64,000 nucleotides of DNA from Calditrichia bacterium (lineage in GTDB: Bacteria > Calditrichota > Calditrichia > RBG-13-44-9 > J075). The stretch spans positions 1-64,000 of the forward strand of contig JANQQU010000088.1 of assembly GCA_028284905.1 (NCBI GenBank). The letters run 5' to 3'. Below are positions 56,092 to 61,378 of the stretch, piece by piece (position 1 is the first letter of the stretch; each line of letters starts with the position of its first letter). A program made the position numbers and the translations under genes. The notes under the pieces are model-generated. The model did not search any database. It had not been told where the DNA came from and saw nothing but the letters and a program-made list of their open reading frames with translations.

Positions 56092-58044
56092 ATGCCGATA
56101 GGATTTTATCATTTCTCTTTGTCCGGAGATAATCCGGGCGCCAGCGAAAGTCTGAATAGTGCGCAACACCAGGCATTATCTGTCGAGTTCGGCAGTGACT
56201 GGCTGTATCTACGGCATGAAGATGATGTACTGCTTTTTGTTGCCCGCCCCGACAGTGCCAGCCGGATTGATGTCGAAAAAATACTCGATAACAATCAAAT
56301 CCTTTCCCGCCCGGCAATTAATGAACGCCACCTGGAAAGCGGCCGCGCTGCTGTTTCCCGCCTATTGGAAATTATCACCGGCACTGCAGTGGAATTCCTG
56401 AATAAACTATCTTTGGAATCCCTTCATCGCGCCTATAACGAAGCGGTGGAAGCAGGGCATATTGGTGCGGACTTGCAGCGACTGTTTCAACGGGGCATCT
56501 GGTTGCATGAGCGCGTGCGTCAGGAAACACCATTCTTTCGTTTTGCAACCGTCGAAGAAGCTGTATTTTGCGAACTGGCAGAAAAGATTGTCGGCACCCT
56601 GGCGAACAGAAACGTCGGTATTATCGGTTATGACCCTTCGCTGCCGCGAATCGTTTCCCGCCTGAAAAGTGCCGGTTGTAAAACCTTTGTCTTTCTCGGA
56701 AATGATACGGAGATCGACGATGATCTGGTGCTTCGTTGCGACGGCACTTCCAGCATCAGCAAAAATTTGAAAGAATTGCCGGCAGGCCTCGATCTGTTAC
56801 TCGTTTATTATTCCACGACGCATAAATTAACGGAAGCACTCCTTACCGAGCACATTGCCCGAAAGAGATACGAGCCGCTGCTGGTGTTTGACTATGCGAA
56901 AAGCGGGCTGAACCAGAAAAAACTAAAACGAATCAACCGCCTTTATTTTTACGATGCCCGCGATGTTGAAAAAGCTATCAATTTTAATAAGGCCGAGCAG
57001 ATGGATTCCCTGCAGGAAATCCATAACTGGATCAACAAAGAAACCCGCAATTATTACAATTGGCGGCAAAGCGAAGATCGTTTTCAGTTTGCCGGCATCA
57101 TTGGCCGAAATAGTCGAATGCAGCAGGTCTTTCAAATGATTTCCCGGATTGCCCGCACGGATATCACCGTATTGATTGATGGGGAGAGCGGCACCGGAAA
57201 AGAGCTGGTCGCCCGGGCGGTTCATCAATTAAGTGCCAGGAGCCGTCGTCCCTTTCAGGTGGTGAACTGTGGCGCAATCCCGGACAATTTGCTTGAAAGT
57301 GAACTGTTTGGGCACGTCCGCGGAGCGTTTACCGGGGCGGTATCACCAAAAACCGGCCTTTTCGAAGCTGCCAATAGCGGCACGGTCTTTCTCGATGAAA
57401 TCGGGGAATTGCCGCCACATCTGCAGGTAAAGCTGCTCCGGGTGTTGCAGGATGGGGAAATTAAACGGGTTGGCGGTAATGAAACGATTCGGGTAGATGT
57501 TCGCCTTGTCGCCGCTACCAATCGCGATTTGGCCGCGATGGTAGAAAATGGCGATTTTCGCAGTGACCTTTTCTATCGTCTGAATGTCATTCAACTGACC
57601 GTTCCGCCATTGCGGGAACGCCTCGATGATGTTCCTTTGCTGGTAGGGCACTTTATCCGCAAATACGCGAAAAAGCTGAAGAAAAATGTCTCCGGAATTT
57701 CCCCGGAAGCCTTGCAAATTATCGAAGGATATCACTGGCCGGGTAATATTCGCGAACTGGAAAATGCCATCGAGCGATCGGTCGCGCTATCGTTTGGAGA
57801 TAAAATCCAGAACTATGATTTACCACCGGTTATCCGCCAGCTGCCATCTACAACGGTGAGTTCTCCGGAAGGTGGATTAACCTTGCGGGAGATGGAAAAA
57901 CAATATATTTTACAAACCCTCGAAGCTTGTGAATGGAACTATGAGCTTGCCAGCAAACAACTGGCTATCGGGCGGACGACCTTGTGGCGTAAAATGCGTG
58001 AATACAAGATGCCTGAAGAAGGTGAGCAGTTTAGCAAAAAGTAA
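56092..58044 (+). CDS. Sigma-54-dependent activator (AAA+ and Fis HTH) fused to a degenerate glutamyl-tRNA-reductase-like N-terminal region
   Basis: C-terminal: DGESGTGKELVARAVHQ, GAFTGA, HWPGNIRELENAIERS, HTH NYELASKQLAIGRTTLWRKM. N-terminal (about aa 1-325): IGFYHF, SLHRAYNEAVEAGHIGADLQRLFQRGIWLHERVRQET, LYFYDARDVEKAINFNKAEQ...INKETRNYYNW. Confidence 0.85.
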   Translation: MPIGFYHFSLSGDNPGASESLNSAQHQALSVEFGSDWLYLRHEDDVLLFVARPDSASRIDVEKILDNNQILSRPAINERHLESGRAAVSRLLEIITGTAVEFLNKLSLESLHRAYNEAVEAGHIGADLQRLFQRGIWLHERVRQETPFFRFATVEEAVFCELAEKIVGTLANRNVGIIGYDPSLPRIVSRLKSAGCKTFVFLGNDTEIDDDLVLRCDGTSSISKNLKELPAGLDLLLVYYSTTHKLTEALLTEHIARKRYEPLLVFDYAKSGLNQKKLKRINRLYFYDARDVEKAINFNKAEQMDSLQEIHNWINKETRNYYNWRQSEDRFQFAGIIGRNSRMQQVFQMISRIARTDITVLIDGESGTGKELVARAVHQLSARSRRPFQVVNCGAIPDNLLESELFGHVRGAFTGAVSPKTGLFEAANSGTVFLDEIGELPPHLQVKLLRVLQDGEIKRVGGNETIRVDVRLVAATNRDLAAMVENGDFRSDLFYRLNVIQLTVPPLRERLDDVPLLVGHFIRKYAKKLKKNVSGISPEALQIIEGYHWPGNIRELENAIERSVALSFGDKIQNYDLPPVIRQLPSTTVSSPEGGLTLREMEKQYILQTLEACEWNYELASKQLAIGRTTLWRKMREYKMPEEGEQFSKK

Positions 58045-58058
58045 TAGAACAATCGGAA

Positions 58059-59456
58059 ATGTCGATCTTAAAAGATACACCTGATAAAGAATTTTTAATT
58101 CGTCTGAATGAAGCAGCGGCCACAGTTGGGACAGTCGTTTTTCCCGCGGGTGCATATGTGCGCGAGCTAATGCTGGGGCGTCACCGTTCAAAAATATCCC
58201 TGATCGTTGCCGGTGATACGGAACCGTTTATTCAACATTTACGGGAGAGTGCCGGTGCAAGCAATAGCGACTCAGGTGACGAAAACGAAACACCCGCCCT
58301 GCAATACGATAAACATTTGATGAGAGTGTTTGCGGGAGAAAACATCACCGAAGATACCGGGAGCGCCCAGGCACTGGCAAGCAGCCTCAATCAAAAAGAT
58401 TTTTCCATCAATGCAATGGCAGTGGATATTCGGCCGGATAAATTTGGCGCTTTAATCGATCCTTTTCAGGGGGAAGCGGATTTGGAGAAGCGTATTATTC
58501 GCACAACCCTCGTTCCGGAAGTTGCCTTTCAGAAATCTCCGTTAAATATGCTGGCAGCAGTTTATCTGGCGGCCAGACTACATTTCCATATCGAGCAGGC
58601 AACTTTTCAAGCAATTCAGGATAATGCTTCTCTGTTAAAAGCAGTCCCCCGGGAAAATGTAACCAGCTATTTTAAAAGATTGATTTTGCTGAAGAAACCT
58701 TCCACCGGACTGGATTTGATGAAGAAGTCCGGTATTAGCCAGGTGGTATTTCCGGAGTTGGATGCGATGACCGGCGTGGAACAGCGCAACGAGTATCTGC
58801 ATAAAGATGTTTTTTACCACACCCTGAAAGTGCTGGACAACATTTCTGAGCATACCGATAGTTTCGAATTACGGATGGCAGCACTAATGCACGATATTGC
58901 CAAACCGCAAACCAAGCGATTTGTTAATGGCATTGGCTGGACATTTCATGGCCATGAAGAGCTGGGGGCCCGGATGGTATTGCGCATCGCCCGCCGGATG
59001 AAGCTGCCTATTGCATCTGCGGAATATATCAGTAAATTGGTTCGCCTTCACATGCGCCCCAGTCAGTTGGTGGGGGATGGAGTAACCGATAGTGCCGTCC
59101 GCCGCTTGATTACGGAAGCAGAGAAAGATATTAATGATTTAATGACACTTTGCCGCGCGGATATTACCTCGAAAAATCCGCACAAAGTTCGTAAATACCT
59201 TAATAATTTCGACAAGGTTGAAAGTCGGATGAAAGATGTGGAGGCGCTGGATCGTGAACGCGCTTTTCAGCCGGCAATTACCGGCAACGACATTATGAAA
59301 CACCTCGGAGTACCACCCGGTCCAATGATCGGAAAGATTAAAAAAGCCATTACAGATGCGATTCATGCCGGGGAAATTCCCAACGAAAAAGAAGCGTGTT
59401 TTCAGTATTTTTTGCAGATAAAAGAGCGCTTTACCAAGGAAAACGGTGAAAATTAA
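58059..59456 (+). CDS. CCA tRNA nucleotidyltransferase/poly(A) polymerase-like protein with HD domain; nucleotidyltransferase motifs degenerate
   Basis: FPAGAYVRELMLGRHRSKISLIVAG, NQKDFSINAMAVDI, ALIDPFQGEADLEKRIIRTT, FQKSPLNMLAAVYLAARLHFHIE; HD domain KDVFYHTLKVLDNI...AALMHDIAKPQTK. Confidence 0.85.
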   Translation: MSILKDTPDKEFLIRLNEAAATVGTVVFPAGAYVRELMLGRHRSKISLIVAGDTEPFIQHLRESAGASNSDSGDENETPALQYDKHLMRVFAGENITEDTGSAQALASSLNQKDFSINAMAVDIRPDKFGALIDPFQGEADLEKRIIRTTLVPEVAFQKSPLNMLAAVYLAARLHFHIEQATFQAIQDNASLLKAVPRENVTSYFKRLILLKKPSTGLDLMKKSGISQVVFPELDAMTGVEQRNEYLHKDVFYHTLKVLDNISEHTDSFELRMAALMHDIAKPQTKRFVNGIGWTFHGHEELGARMVLRIARRMKLPIASAEYISKLVRLHMRPSQLVGDGVTDSAVRRLITEAEKDINDLMTLCRADITSKNPHKVRKYLNNFDKVESRMKDVEALDRERAFQPAITGNDIMKHLGVPPGPMIGKIKKAITDAIHAGEIPNEKEACFQYFLQIKERFTKENGEN

Positions 59457-59567: not shown

Positions 59568-59819
59568 GTGGCTGATACAAAAAAAGGGAAAAATACCGAG
59601 AGTAAAGAAATCAGCGATATTCTGGATCAACTTTCCGAAACGGATAAGCCGCAATCGCAATCGAAACCGGCTGAGAAAAAAGAGGAGATCATTAAGAAAC
59701 CTGCGGGCATTACCGATGAGCCAGAAGATATTGAGGGCATGCTGGAAAAAATTTCCGAAAAACCGCGTGAAAAGCCCGGTTTTTTTCAAAAGCTGCTAAG
59801 CTTTTTCAAGAAATCGTAA
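59568..59819 (+). CDS. Small charged hypothetical protein (83 aa)
   Basis: ORF starting with GTG/ATG context 'ggaaaggagcagtag'; Lys/Glu-rich with amphipathic C-terminus GFFQKLLSFFKKS. Confidence 0.55.
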   Translation: MADTKKGKNTESKEISDILDQLSETDKPQSQSKPAEKKEEIIKKPAGITDEPEDIEGMLEKISEKPREKPGFFQKLLSFFKKS

Positions 59820-60010: not shown

Positions 60011-61378
60011 ATGAAGTTGAAGTGGAACGTTATTGCGTTAGTAATACTGTTTTGTACCTTACCTGGATGGGGACAGAGTTCATCCCCGCTTTCTTTAAAA
60101 GATTGCATTCGCATTGCGTTGGAAAACAACGTTTCTGTGCAAACCAACGAAAACCTTTCAAAAATTGCATCCAACAACTACCTGGCATCTTATAGCGATA
60201 TTTTACCGACTGTTTCCAGTTCATTCTCGGCCAGTCGCACGACTATCGGCCCGTCGGAATTCCTCGACCAGGTACCGGTTGGTTTTGACAGCACTACCGG
60301 TGATGCGATTTATGAAACCCGTGTGCGCGTCAGTGATAAATTGGAATTTAACTCCCACCGGGCCAATGTTACTGTGAATCAAAATATCTTTGATGGTGGC
60401 CGCTGGTGGAACAATATTCGGCAGGGAAAAGCAAATAAGAATGCCGCTGAATACAATTTCTTAAGCGAGACCAATTCGACAATTACCACTGTTGCTCAGA
60501 ATTATATCGATTTACTGAAGCAGGAAAAACTGCTGGAAGTGAATGAATTGATGGTTCAGCGTAGCCAGGACAACCTCAATCGTAGCCAGAAAATGTTTGA
60601 AATCGGCTCCGTGGCAAAAGTCGATGTTTTTCGCGCCAGAGGCAATTTAGGGCGTGACCGTATAACCATGATTAATCAGCGTAACCAGGTTCACCGGGCG
60701 CGCCAGCGGTTGAATATTTCTCTGGGAAGAGCGCCCAATACTCCCCTGGAGATTGCGAAAGATTACGAACTGGACTATAGTCTGCCTGCGCTGAAAGAAC
60801 TTACCGATCGGGCTTTCGATAATCAGCCGGAATTGCGTCGTCAGGAAATGCGAGTGCGCTCCGATGAACTGGATGTTTCCCTGGCAAAGAGTGCTTTCGT
60901 ACCGCGTGTTTCCGCATTCTTTTCCTATAACCGCGACAACGATGAATTGAAAAAACTCTACACAAGTTTTGATCGCAACTGGTCAACAGCCGTGGGGATT
61001 AACGTCAATTTCAATTTGTTCAATGGTTTTCAGGACATGGTTAATCATCAAAATGCCAAGATTGATCTGAAAAACACTCGTTTGGCATTGGAAGATTACA
61101 AACGTCAATTAACTTCGGACATTTCCGTTACCTATCAGAACTACAAAGATTTAGTGGAAATCGTTGAAATTAATGAGACCAACCTGGAAGCAGCCCAGGA
61201 AGAGTATCGCCTTGCAAACGAACGCTATCGCCTTGGTTCCGGCACTTCTCTTGATGTTCGTGAATCCCAGGTTAGCTTAACAGATGCTGAGCGAATTCTT
61301 GTTGCAGCGAAGTACGACTTAATCAGCACTTATGCTCGCCTGATGGAACTGGTCGGCAACGGTCAAAACGCATTCTAA
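60011..61378 (+). CDS. TolC family outer membrane protein
   Basis: Signal peptide; SLKDCIRIALENNVSVQT; long coiled-coil repeats; YRLGSGTSLDVRESQVSLTDAERILVAAKYD. Confidence 0.93.
   Translation: MKLKWNVIALVILFCTLPGWGQSSSPLSLKDCIRIALENNVSVQTNENLSKIASNNYLASYSDILPTVSSSFSASRTTIGPSEFLDQVPVGFDSTTGDAIYETRVRVSDKLEFNSHRANVTVNQNIFDGGRWWNNIRQGKANKNAAEYNFLSETNSTITTVAQNYIDLLKQEKLLEVNELMVQRSQDNLNRSQKMFEIGSVAKVDVFRARGNLGRDRITMINQRNQVHRARQRLNISLGRAPNTPLEIAKDYELDYSLPALKELTDRAFDNQPELRRQEMRVRSDELDVSLAKSAFVPRVSAFFSYNRDNDELKKLYTSFDRNWSTAVGINVNFNLFNGFQDMVNHQNAKIDLKNTRLALEDYKRQLTSDISVTYQNYKDLVEIVEINETNLEAAQEEYRLANERYRLGSGTSLDVRESQVSLTDAERILVAAKYDLISTYARLMELVGNGQNAF

Follow-up and report, generated by a model that had tools for sequence, protein, structure and literature searches.

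In class II CCA-adding enzymes three carboxylates bind the metal and a D..R pair recognizes the bases, and a short flexible loop is a hallmark of the CC-adding enzymes (PMC3925840); the ER form of the ERxxxE motif has been tied to full CCA addition (PMC10673834). In the Mycobacterium tuberculosis enzyme, changing motif A from DLD to AAA abolished CCA addition and left the phosphohydrolase activity on p-nitrophenyl phosphate, and the HD mutant H298A lost the phosphohydrolase activity; a passage of the same paper, citing work in Escherichia coli, credits the HD domain with removing 2',3'-cyclic phosphates from tRNA ends (PMC10673834). The beta subunit of glycyl-tRNA synthetase (GlyRS) has an HD fold that lost the HD pair and may help to bind tRNA (PMC8464048). 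Wherever a bacterial CCA enzyme is essential, the cellular role of its HD domain is difficult to investigate. We analyzed P0001, the protein of the open reading frame (ORF) 58059-59456 in a 64,000-nucleotide stretch (the window) of contig JANQQU010000088.1 from a Calditrichia bacterium (source genome G000; 8.55 Mb, 93 contigs, completeness estimate 100%), which belongs to this family and in which evolution may have separated the two functions of the CCA enzyme.

P0001 was homologous to class II CCA-adding enzymes across head, neck, body and HD domains, as judged by PDB and Foldseek matches and by Pfam matches above cut-off to PF01743 (PolyA_pol head), PF12627 (RNA-binding), PF01966 (HD) and PF13735 (C-terminal). 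It shares the head-neck-body-HD-tail order and the conserved HD site with the bacterial enzymes bearing a C-terminal HD/HDIG domain (E. coli Cca, M. tuberculosis Rv3907c, TIGR02692), but unlike the E. coli Cca/Rv3907c type it lacks all catalytic and templating residues of the head; TIGR02692 matched it with an E-value of 7e-77, yet at 259 bits, far below the equivalog cut-off of 438.8 bits. Its top PDB match, both by fold (Foldseek) and by sequence, was the Aquifex CC-adding enzyme (AaS), with the HD-like region covered and a short loop in common. AaS retains D58, D60, D112 and D182/R185 (PMC3925840), whereas P0001 has neither an intact DxD nor a DxxR, so its short loop does not make it a CC-adding enzyme. 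With an inactivated head and an intact HD domain, P0001 resembles the M. tuberculosis DLD-to-AAA mutant, which kept the hydrolase (PMC10673834); that mutant was made in the laboratory, while the gene of P0001 is natural and has persisted across genera. Bacterial GlyRS beta has an HD domain, related in fold to the CCA-enzyme body, that may help to bind tRNA in a protein with no nucleotidyltransferase role (PMC8464048), but there the HD pair was lost, whereas P0001 keeps the pair and lost the head. Literature searches of limited coverage returned nothing relevant on inactive or degenerate CCA-enzyme homologs, which is no proof of novelty, and nothing on Calditrichota. The P0001 type, restricted to two genera, is a variant within a known family and not a new kind of system.

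The gene of P0001 was found to be the syntenic ortholog of the sole CCA enzyme of other Calditrichota, in which motif A is an intact DxD. An ortholog was present in all 24 genomes of the class that are at least 90% complete, and since a short ORF and a TolC gene follow downstream in the same order in G001 to G008, the locus is the same in all of them; the gene tree also backed orthology. All other full-length class orthologs that were examined had the intact DxD, and the wider set of fetched loci included 83 with an intact DxD (some of these loci being the same gene fetched twice). Both motif A aspartates were lost only in G000 and in G003, a genome of another genus of the same family. The resident copy of G002, read from two contigs overlapping by 25 bases, was intermediate, with intact catalytic residues and a shortened flexible loop.

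Alignment of the head domain bore out the preliminary description of this DNA, which had proposed a gap-free motif A (GAYVRELMLGRHRSKISLIV in P0001, GGFVRDLYLGKEGTDIDFVV in the orthologs) with Lys and Ser in place of the two catalytic Asp residues (K45 and S47; Table 1), together with an altered DPLR-type motif (DPLRMLRAVRFA, read as SPLNMLAAVYLA in P0001); the family landmarks that it listed as persisting (KDFSINAMAVDI, LIDPFQGEADLEKRIIRTT and the HD motifs) were also found in the translation. Loss of the active site goes beyond what had been described there, as the third carboxylate (now R89), RRD, the flexible loop and ERxxxE, whose position is occupied by ENVTSY, are also gone. P0001 thus departs from a functional class II CCA-adding enzyme at the motif A DxD, the third carboxylate, the DxxR templating pair, RRD, the flexible loop and ERxxxE. 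No alternative DxD in register was present in P0001, strands 45-51 and 86-93 being devoid of acidic residues in the alignment and in the AlphaFold model. This model had a mean predicted local distance difference test score of 89 overall, and of 79-97 along the head except for residues 71-80 and 91-110. In G003, an independent metagenome-assembled genome, the same catalytic sites were lost to other replacements (R45, S47, Q159/Y160 and, in place of the third acid, T), R163 was retained, the codons differ from those of G000 and the frame is open; an in-frame stop flagged in this ortholog was merely the terminal stop. Since the 25 other class orthologs in the alignment all have D45, D47, D159, D160 and R163, and since G003, a separate assembly, lacks the same catalytic sites, loss of the active site is due neither to chance nor to sequencing error.

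Elsewhere in the family, the first catalytic Asp of motif A was replaced by Glu (ExD) in loci L057, L061, L062 and 23 others, mostly of Ignavibacteria, where this change is lineage-wide. A CCA homolog of candidate division KSB1 (L120:8001-9353, JAFGKD010000113.1) had KxD (NDKIDLVV) at motif A and an intact DDPLR, and was the only PF01743 protein detected in its genome.

P0001 is not the only CCA enzyme of G000. A second, intact cca gene, which the preliminary description had proposed to look for, was present on another contig (G000:C31:34224-35582, minus strand); its product, P0003, is the second PF01743 protein of the genome, keeps DxD, RRDFT, EDPLR and ERxxxE intact, and belongs to a CCA-enzyme lineage other than that of the resident P0001. 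Among 41 genomes of the phylum, orthologs of P0003 were found only in G003 (65% identity) and G002 (57%). The trees of the resident enzyme and of P0003 agree, both giving (G000,G003),G002, and the simplest account of this match is a single gain of P0003 in the common ancestor followed by vertical descent. CCA is encoded in only 3 of the 31 tRNA genes of G000, and CCA addition must therefore be carried out by P0003. The nearest relative of P0003 outside the phylum, with moderate support, was a contig-truncated gene of G385; this gene (L147:1492-2088, from another phylum) is 58% identical to P0003, has NxD at motif A and is cut at the contig end.

In the tRNA genes themselves, C74 was encoded after the discriminator base in 31/31 genes of G000, in 42/42 genes of five relatives and in 13/13 genes of Ignavibacteria and others, and C75 and A76 were mostly not encoded (own loci L151-L180, loci L181-L210 and Ignavibacteria). 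A link between gene-encoded C74 and the switch of enzymes was rejected, as all tRNA genes examined in relatives with an intact enzyme and in Ignavibacteria also encode C74.

Constraint on the resident gene proved to be domain-selective. Branch lengths were determined on a topology built from the non-head domains. Head branches reached 2.45 (G000) and 3.43 (G003) substitutions/site, with stems of 1.94 and 1.70, when no other terminal head branch exceeded 0.9; HD branches were 0.24 (G000) and 0.15 (G003), inside the range of the others. Head distances from the order ancestor were 6.39 (G000) and 7.36 (G003) substitutions/site versus 0.28-0.76 in ten intact relatives, and the corresponding HD distances 0.47 and 0.37 versus 0.09-0.28. 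The resulting head/HD ratios of 13.6 (G000) and 19.6 (G003) compare with a mean of 2.7 in the ten relatives and with 5.9 in G002, the z values of ln(head/HD) being 5.2 (G000) and 6.5 (G003). Silent sites were mostly saturated; dN/dS was therefore dropped and nonsynonymous divergence (dN) alone compared, giving 0.19 for the HD domain and 0.96 for the head between G000 and G003. In P0003 conservation was equal in head and HD (67.6% and 69.0%). The HD domain of the resident does not evolve unusually slowly, but it is clearly under constraint. With the HD domain downstream, the frame would stay open through the head whether or not the head has a function, and its openness is no evidence for one.

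The HD domain had been judged competent in the preliminary description, in agreement with its low divergence and with the invariance of H254, H278, D279, H299, H331 and D368. Of these, H254, H278-D279 and D368, which correspond to the H...HD...D metal-binding residues of HD phosphohydrolases, were invariant across 32 aligned sequences. The domain matched PF01966 at 48.9 bits (curated cut-off 22) and the HDIG profile TIGR00277 at 30.9 bits (curated cut-off 27.6).

Taking these results together, the preliminary description had proposed a pseudo-nucleotidyltransferase scaffold, and its pseudo-nucleotidyltransferase part is well supported by the absence of an in-register DxD and by the second intact CCA enzyme; the alignments make a strong case for P0001 as a pseudo-nucleotidyltransferase. 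We propose, with a probability of about 0.6, that after gain of the second enzyme the resident became a pseudo-nucleotidyltransferase kept for its HD and tRNA-binding half, likely as a tRNA 3'-end phosphohydrolase. Sequence evidence backs four parts of this proposal: that the genes are orthologous, that there is a second enzyme, that the catalytic residues are lost and that constraint is domain-selective. In this scenario Calditrichota inherited an HD-type CCA-adding enzyme vertically, and this resident would have been released from CCA addition when the ancestor of the three genera (G000, G003 and G002) acquired P0003 from another lineage. The flexible loop of the resident would have been lost first, as in the G002 state; the templating site and all three carboxylates that bind metal would have followed in the G000/G003 lineage, leaving a protein that we infer to have no transferase activity and thus no polymerization. 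P0001 would have been kept as a tRNA-binding protein with the HD domain as its working part, most likely a metal-dependent phosphohydrolase trimming phosphate or 2',3'-cyclic phosphate off tRNA 3' ends. Such an activity is favored by the M. tuberculosis mutant (PMC10673834) together with the kept HD metal-site residues, and by this analogy the role is plausible. In its most specific form, which we regard as tentative, P0001 would be a dedicated tRNA 3'-end phosphohydrolase, whose pseudo-polymerase head and tail position the tRNA while the HD domain removes end damage, before the second enzyme rebuilds CCA.

Several points weigh against this proposal. The main one is the HD domain of P0003, in which most of the metal-site residues are likewise kept; HD activity by itself does not set P0001 apart, and P0001 must offer another substrate, partner or regulation. 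The HD distances of G000 and G003 are also somewhat above the mean of the relatives (z 1.9-2.4). Finally, the body/HD/tail region also touches tRNA in related enzymes, and binding alone could explain its conservation.

This last point leads to a protein retained only for binding tRNA or RNA, as a chaperone or regulatory partner, perhaps of P0003, with a structural and non-catalytic HD site; the basic K45 and R89 would then replace the metal, holding phosphate without catalysis. Conservation of tail and HD domain, the basic residue at position 45 common to G003 (K/R) and the GlyRS beta precedent of an HD fold without the HD pair (PMC8464048) all agree with this, but H254, H278, D279, H299, H331 and D368 are all retained, whereas GlyRS beta lost its pair, and we consider it unlikely. 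About as unlikely, if slightly less so, is a course of events in which the second enzyme later took over everything and the resident head died. It draws on the short loop as a hallmark of CC-adding enzymes (PMC3925840) and on G002, whose resident copy has kept its catalytic residues but has a short loop, so that this copy may, by its sequence, represent a CC-adding stage; but the loop could have decayed neutrally, and P0003 has the ER form of ERxxxE, a motif tied to full CCA addition (PMC10673834).

Slow decay of a gene without any selected function, in which the HD half merely lags behind, would fit the fast erosion of the head and also of neck and body, and a functional replacement (P0003) is at hand. 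It is nevertheless very improbable, since the frame is open in two genera, where an unconstrained sequence should have picked up about 14 and 20 nonsense mutations on the terminal head branches alone, the HD domain is 75% identical while silent sites are saturated, and synteny is retained. A pseudogene, with a broken frame or a uniform loss of constraint, is disfavored for the same reasons, namely the open frame in G000 and G003 and the constrained HD domain. Hardly any weight can be given to a P0001 that still transfers nucleotides with atypical residues, such as a partial enzyme working alongside P0003: the predicted head fold is intact, the best whole-protein match is the Aquifex CC-adding enzyme, and KxD in the only detected copy of KSB1 suggests that the first position may tolerate change, but here RRD and the loop have disappeared together with the templating pair and all three carboxylates, and the catalytic strands are acid-free.

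If P0001 is retained for its HD half, an essential activity would have been evolutionarily removed from one copy in this Calditrichota branch, with an intermediate (G002) and intact relatives at hand for comparison; this would be a natural case of separation of function, in which the HD role is directly testable. A dedicated tRNA 3'-end phosphohydrolase, if true, would amount to a natural split of repair and polymerization over two genes.

Table 1. Features of the P0001 gene and its downstream neighbors in the window.
Feature	Position	Strand	Observation
Whole coding sequence, degenerate HD-type class II tRNA nucleotidyltransferase homolog P0001	58059..59456	+	ATG start, 465 aa, no internal stop
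Head (nucleotidyltransferase) domain, residues 1-150, eroded, predicted fold kept	58059..58508	+	29% identity to G003
K45 replacing first catalytic Asp	58191..58193	+	D in 25/25 other class orthologs; R in G003
S47 replacing second catalytic Asp	58197..58199	+	D in 25/25 other class orthologs; S in G003
R89 replacing third catalytic carboxylate (Glu of LEF strand)	58323..58325	+	Alignment; E89 nearly invariant in consensus
Flexible-loop remnant	58338..58382	+	Relatives read ARxEHYxxxSRKPxVxxAD
Q112-K113 replacing RR of motif B (RRDFT; P0001 reads QKD)	58392..58397	+	R at both sites in 25/25
Neck/body domains, residues 151-245, partly accelerated	58509..58793	+	
K159, S160, N163 replacing nucleotide-templating DDxxR	58533..58547	+	D, D, R in 25/25
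HD domain, residues 246-375, conserved; putative metal-site residues H254 (58818), H278-D279 (58890-58895), H299 (58953), H331 (59049), D368 (59160)	58794..59183	+	75% identity to G003
C-terminal tail region (tRNA_NucTran2_2), residues 376-465, conserved	59184..59453	+	57% identity to G003; Pfam
Short ORF 3' of the P0001 gene, syntenic, without Pfam family, orthology marker	59568..59819	+	Order CCA - short ORF - TolC common to G001 to G008
TolC-like ORF, downstream syntenic neighbor, orthology marker	60011..61378	+	Gene order

The short ORF encodes a charged product and is kept 3' of the CCA gene in Calditrichota. On the other side, a sigma-54 activator gene (56092-58044) ends 14 bases 5' of the CCA homolog. 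At the G003 locus the upstream gene, judged by eye, encodes an S1/Tex-like protein in place of the sigma-54 activator, indicating that the upstream side is not conserved.
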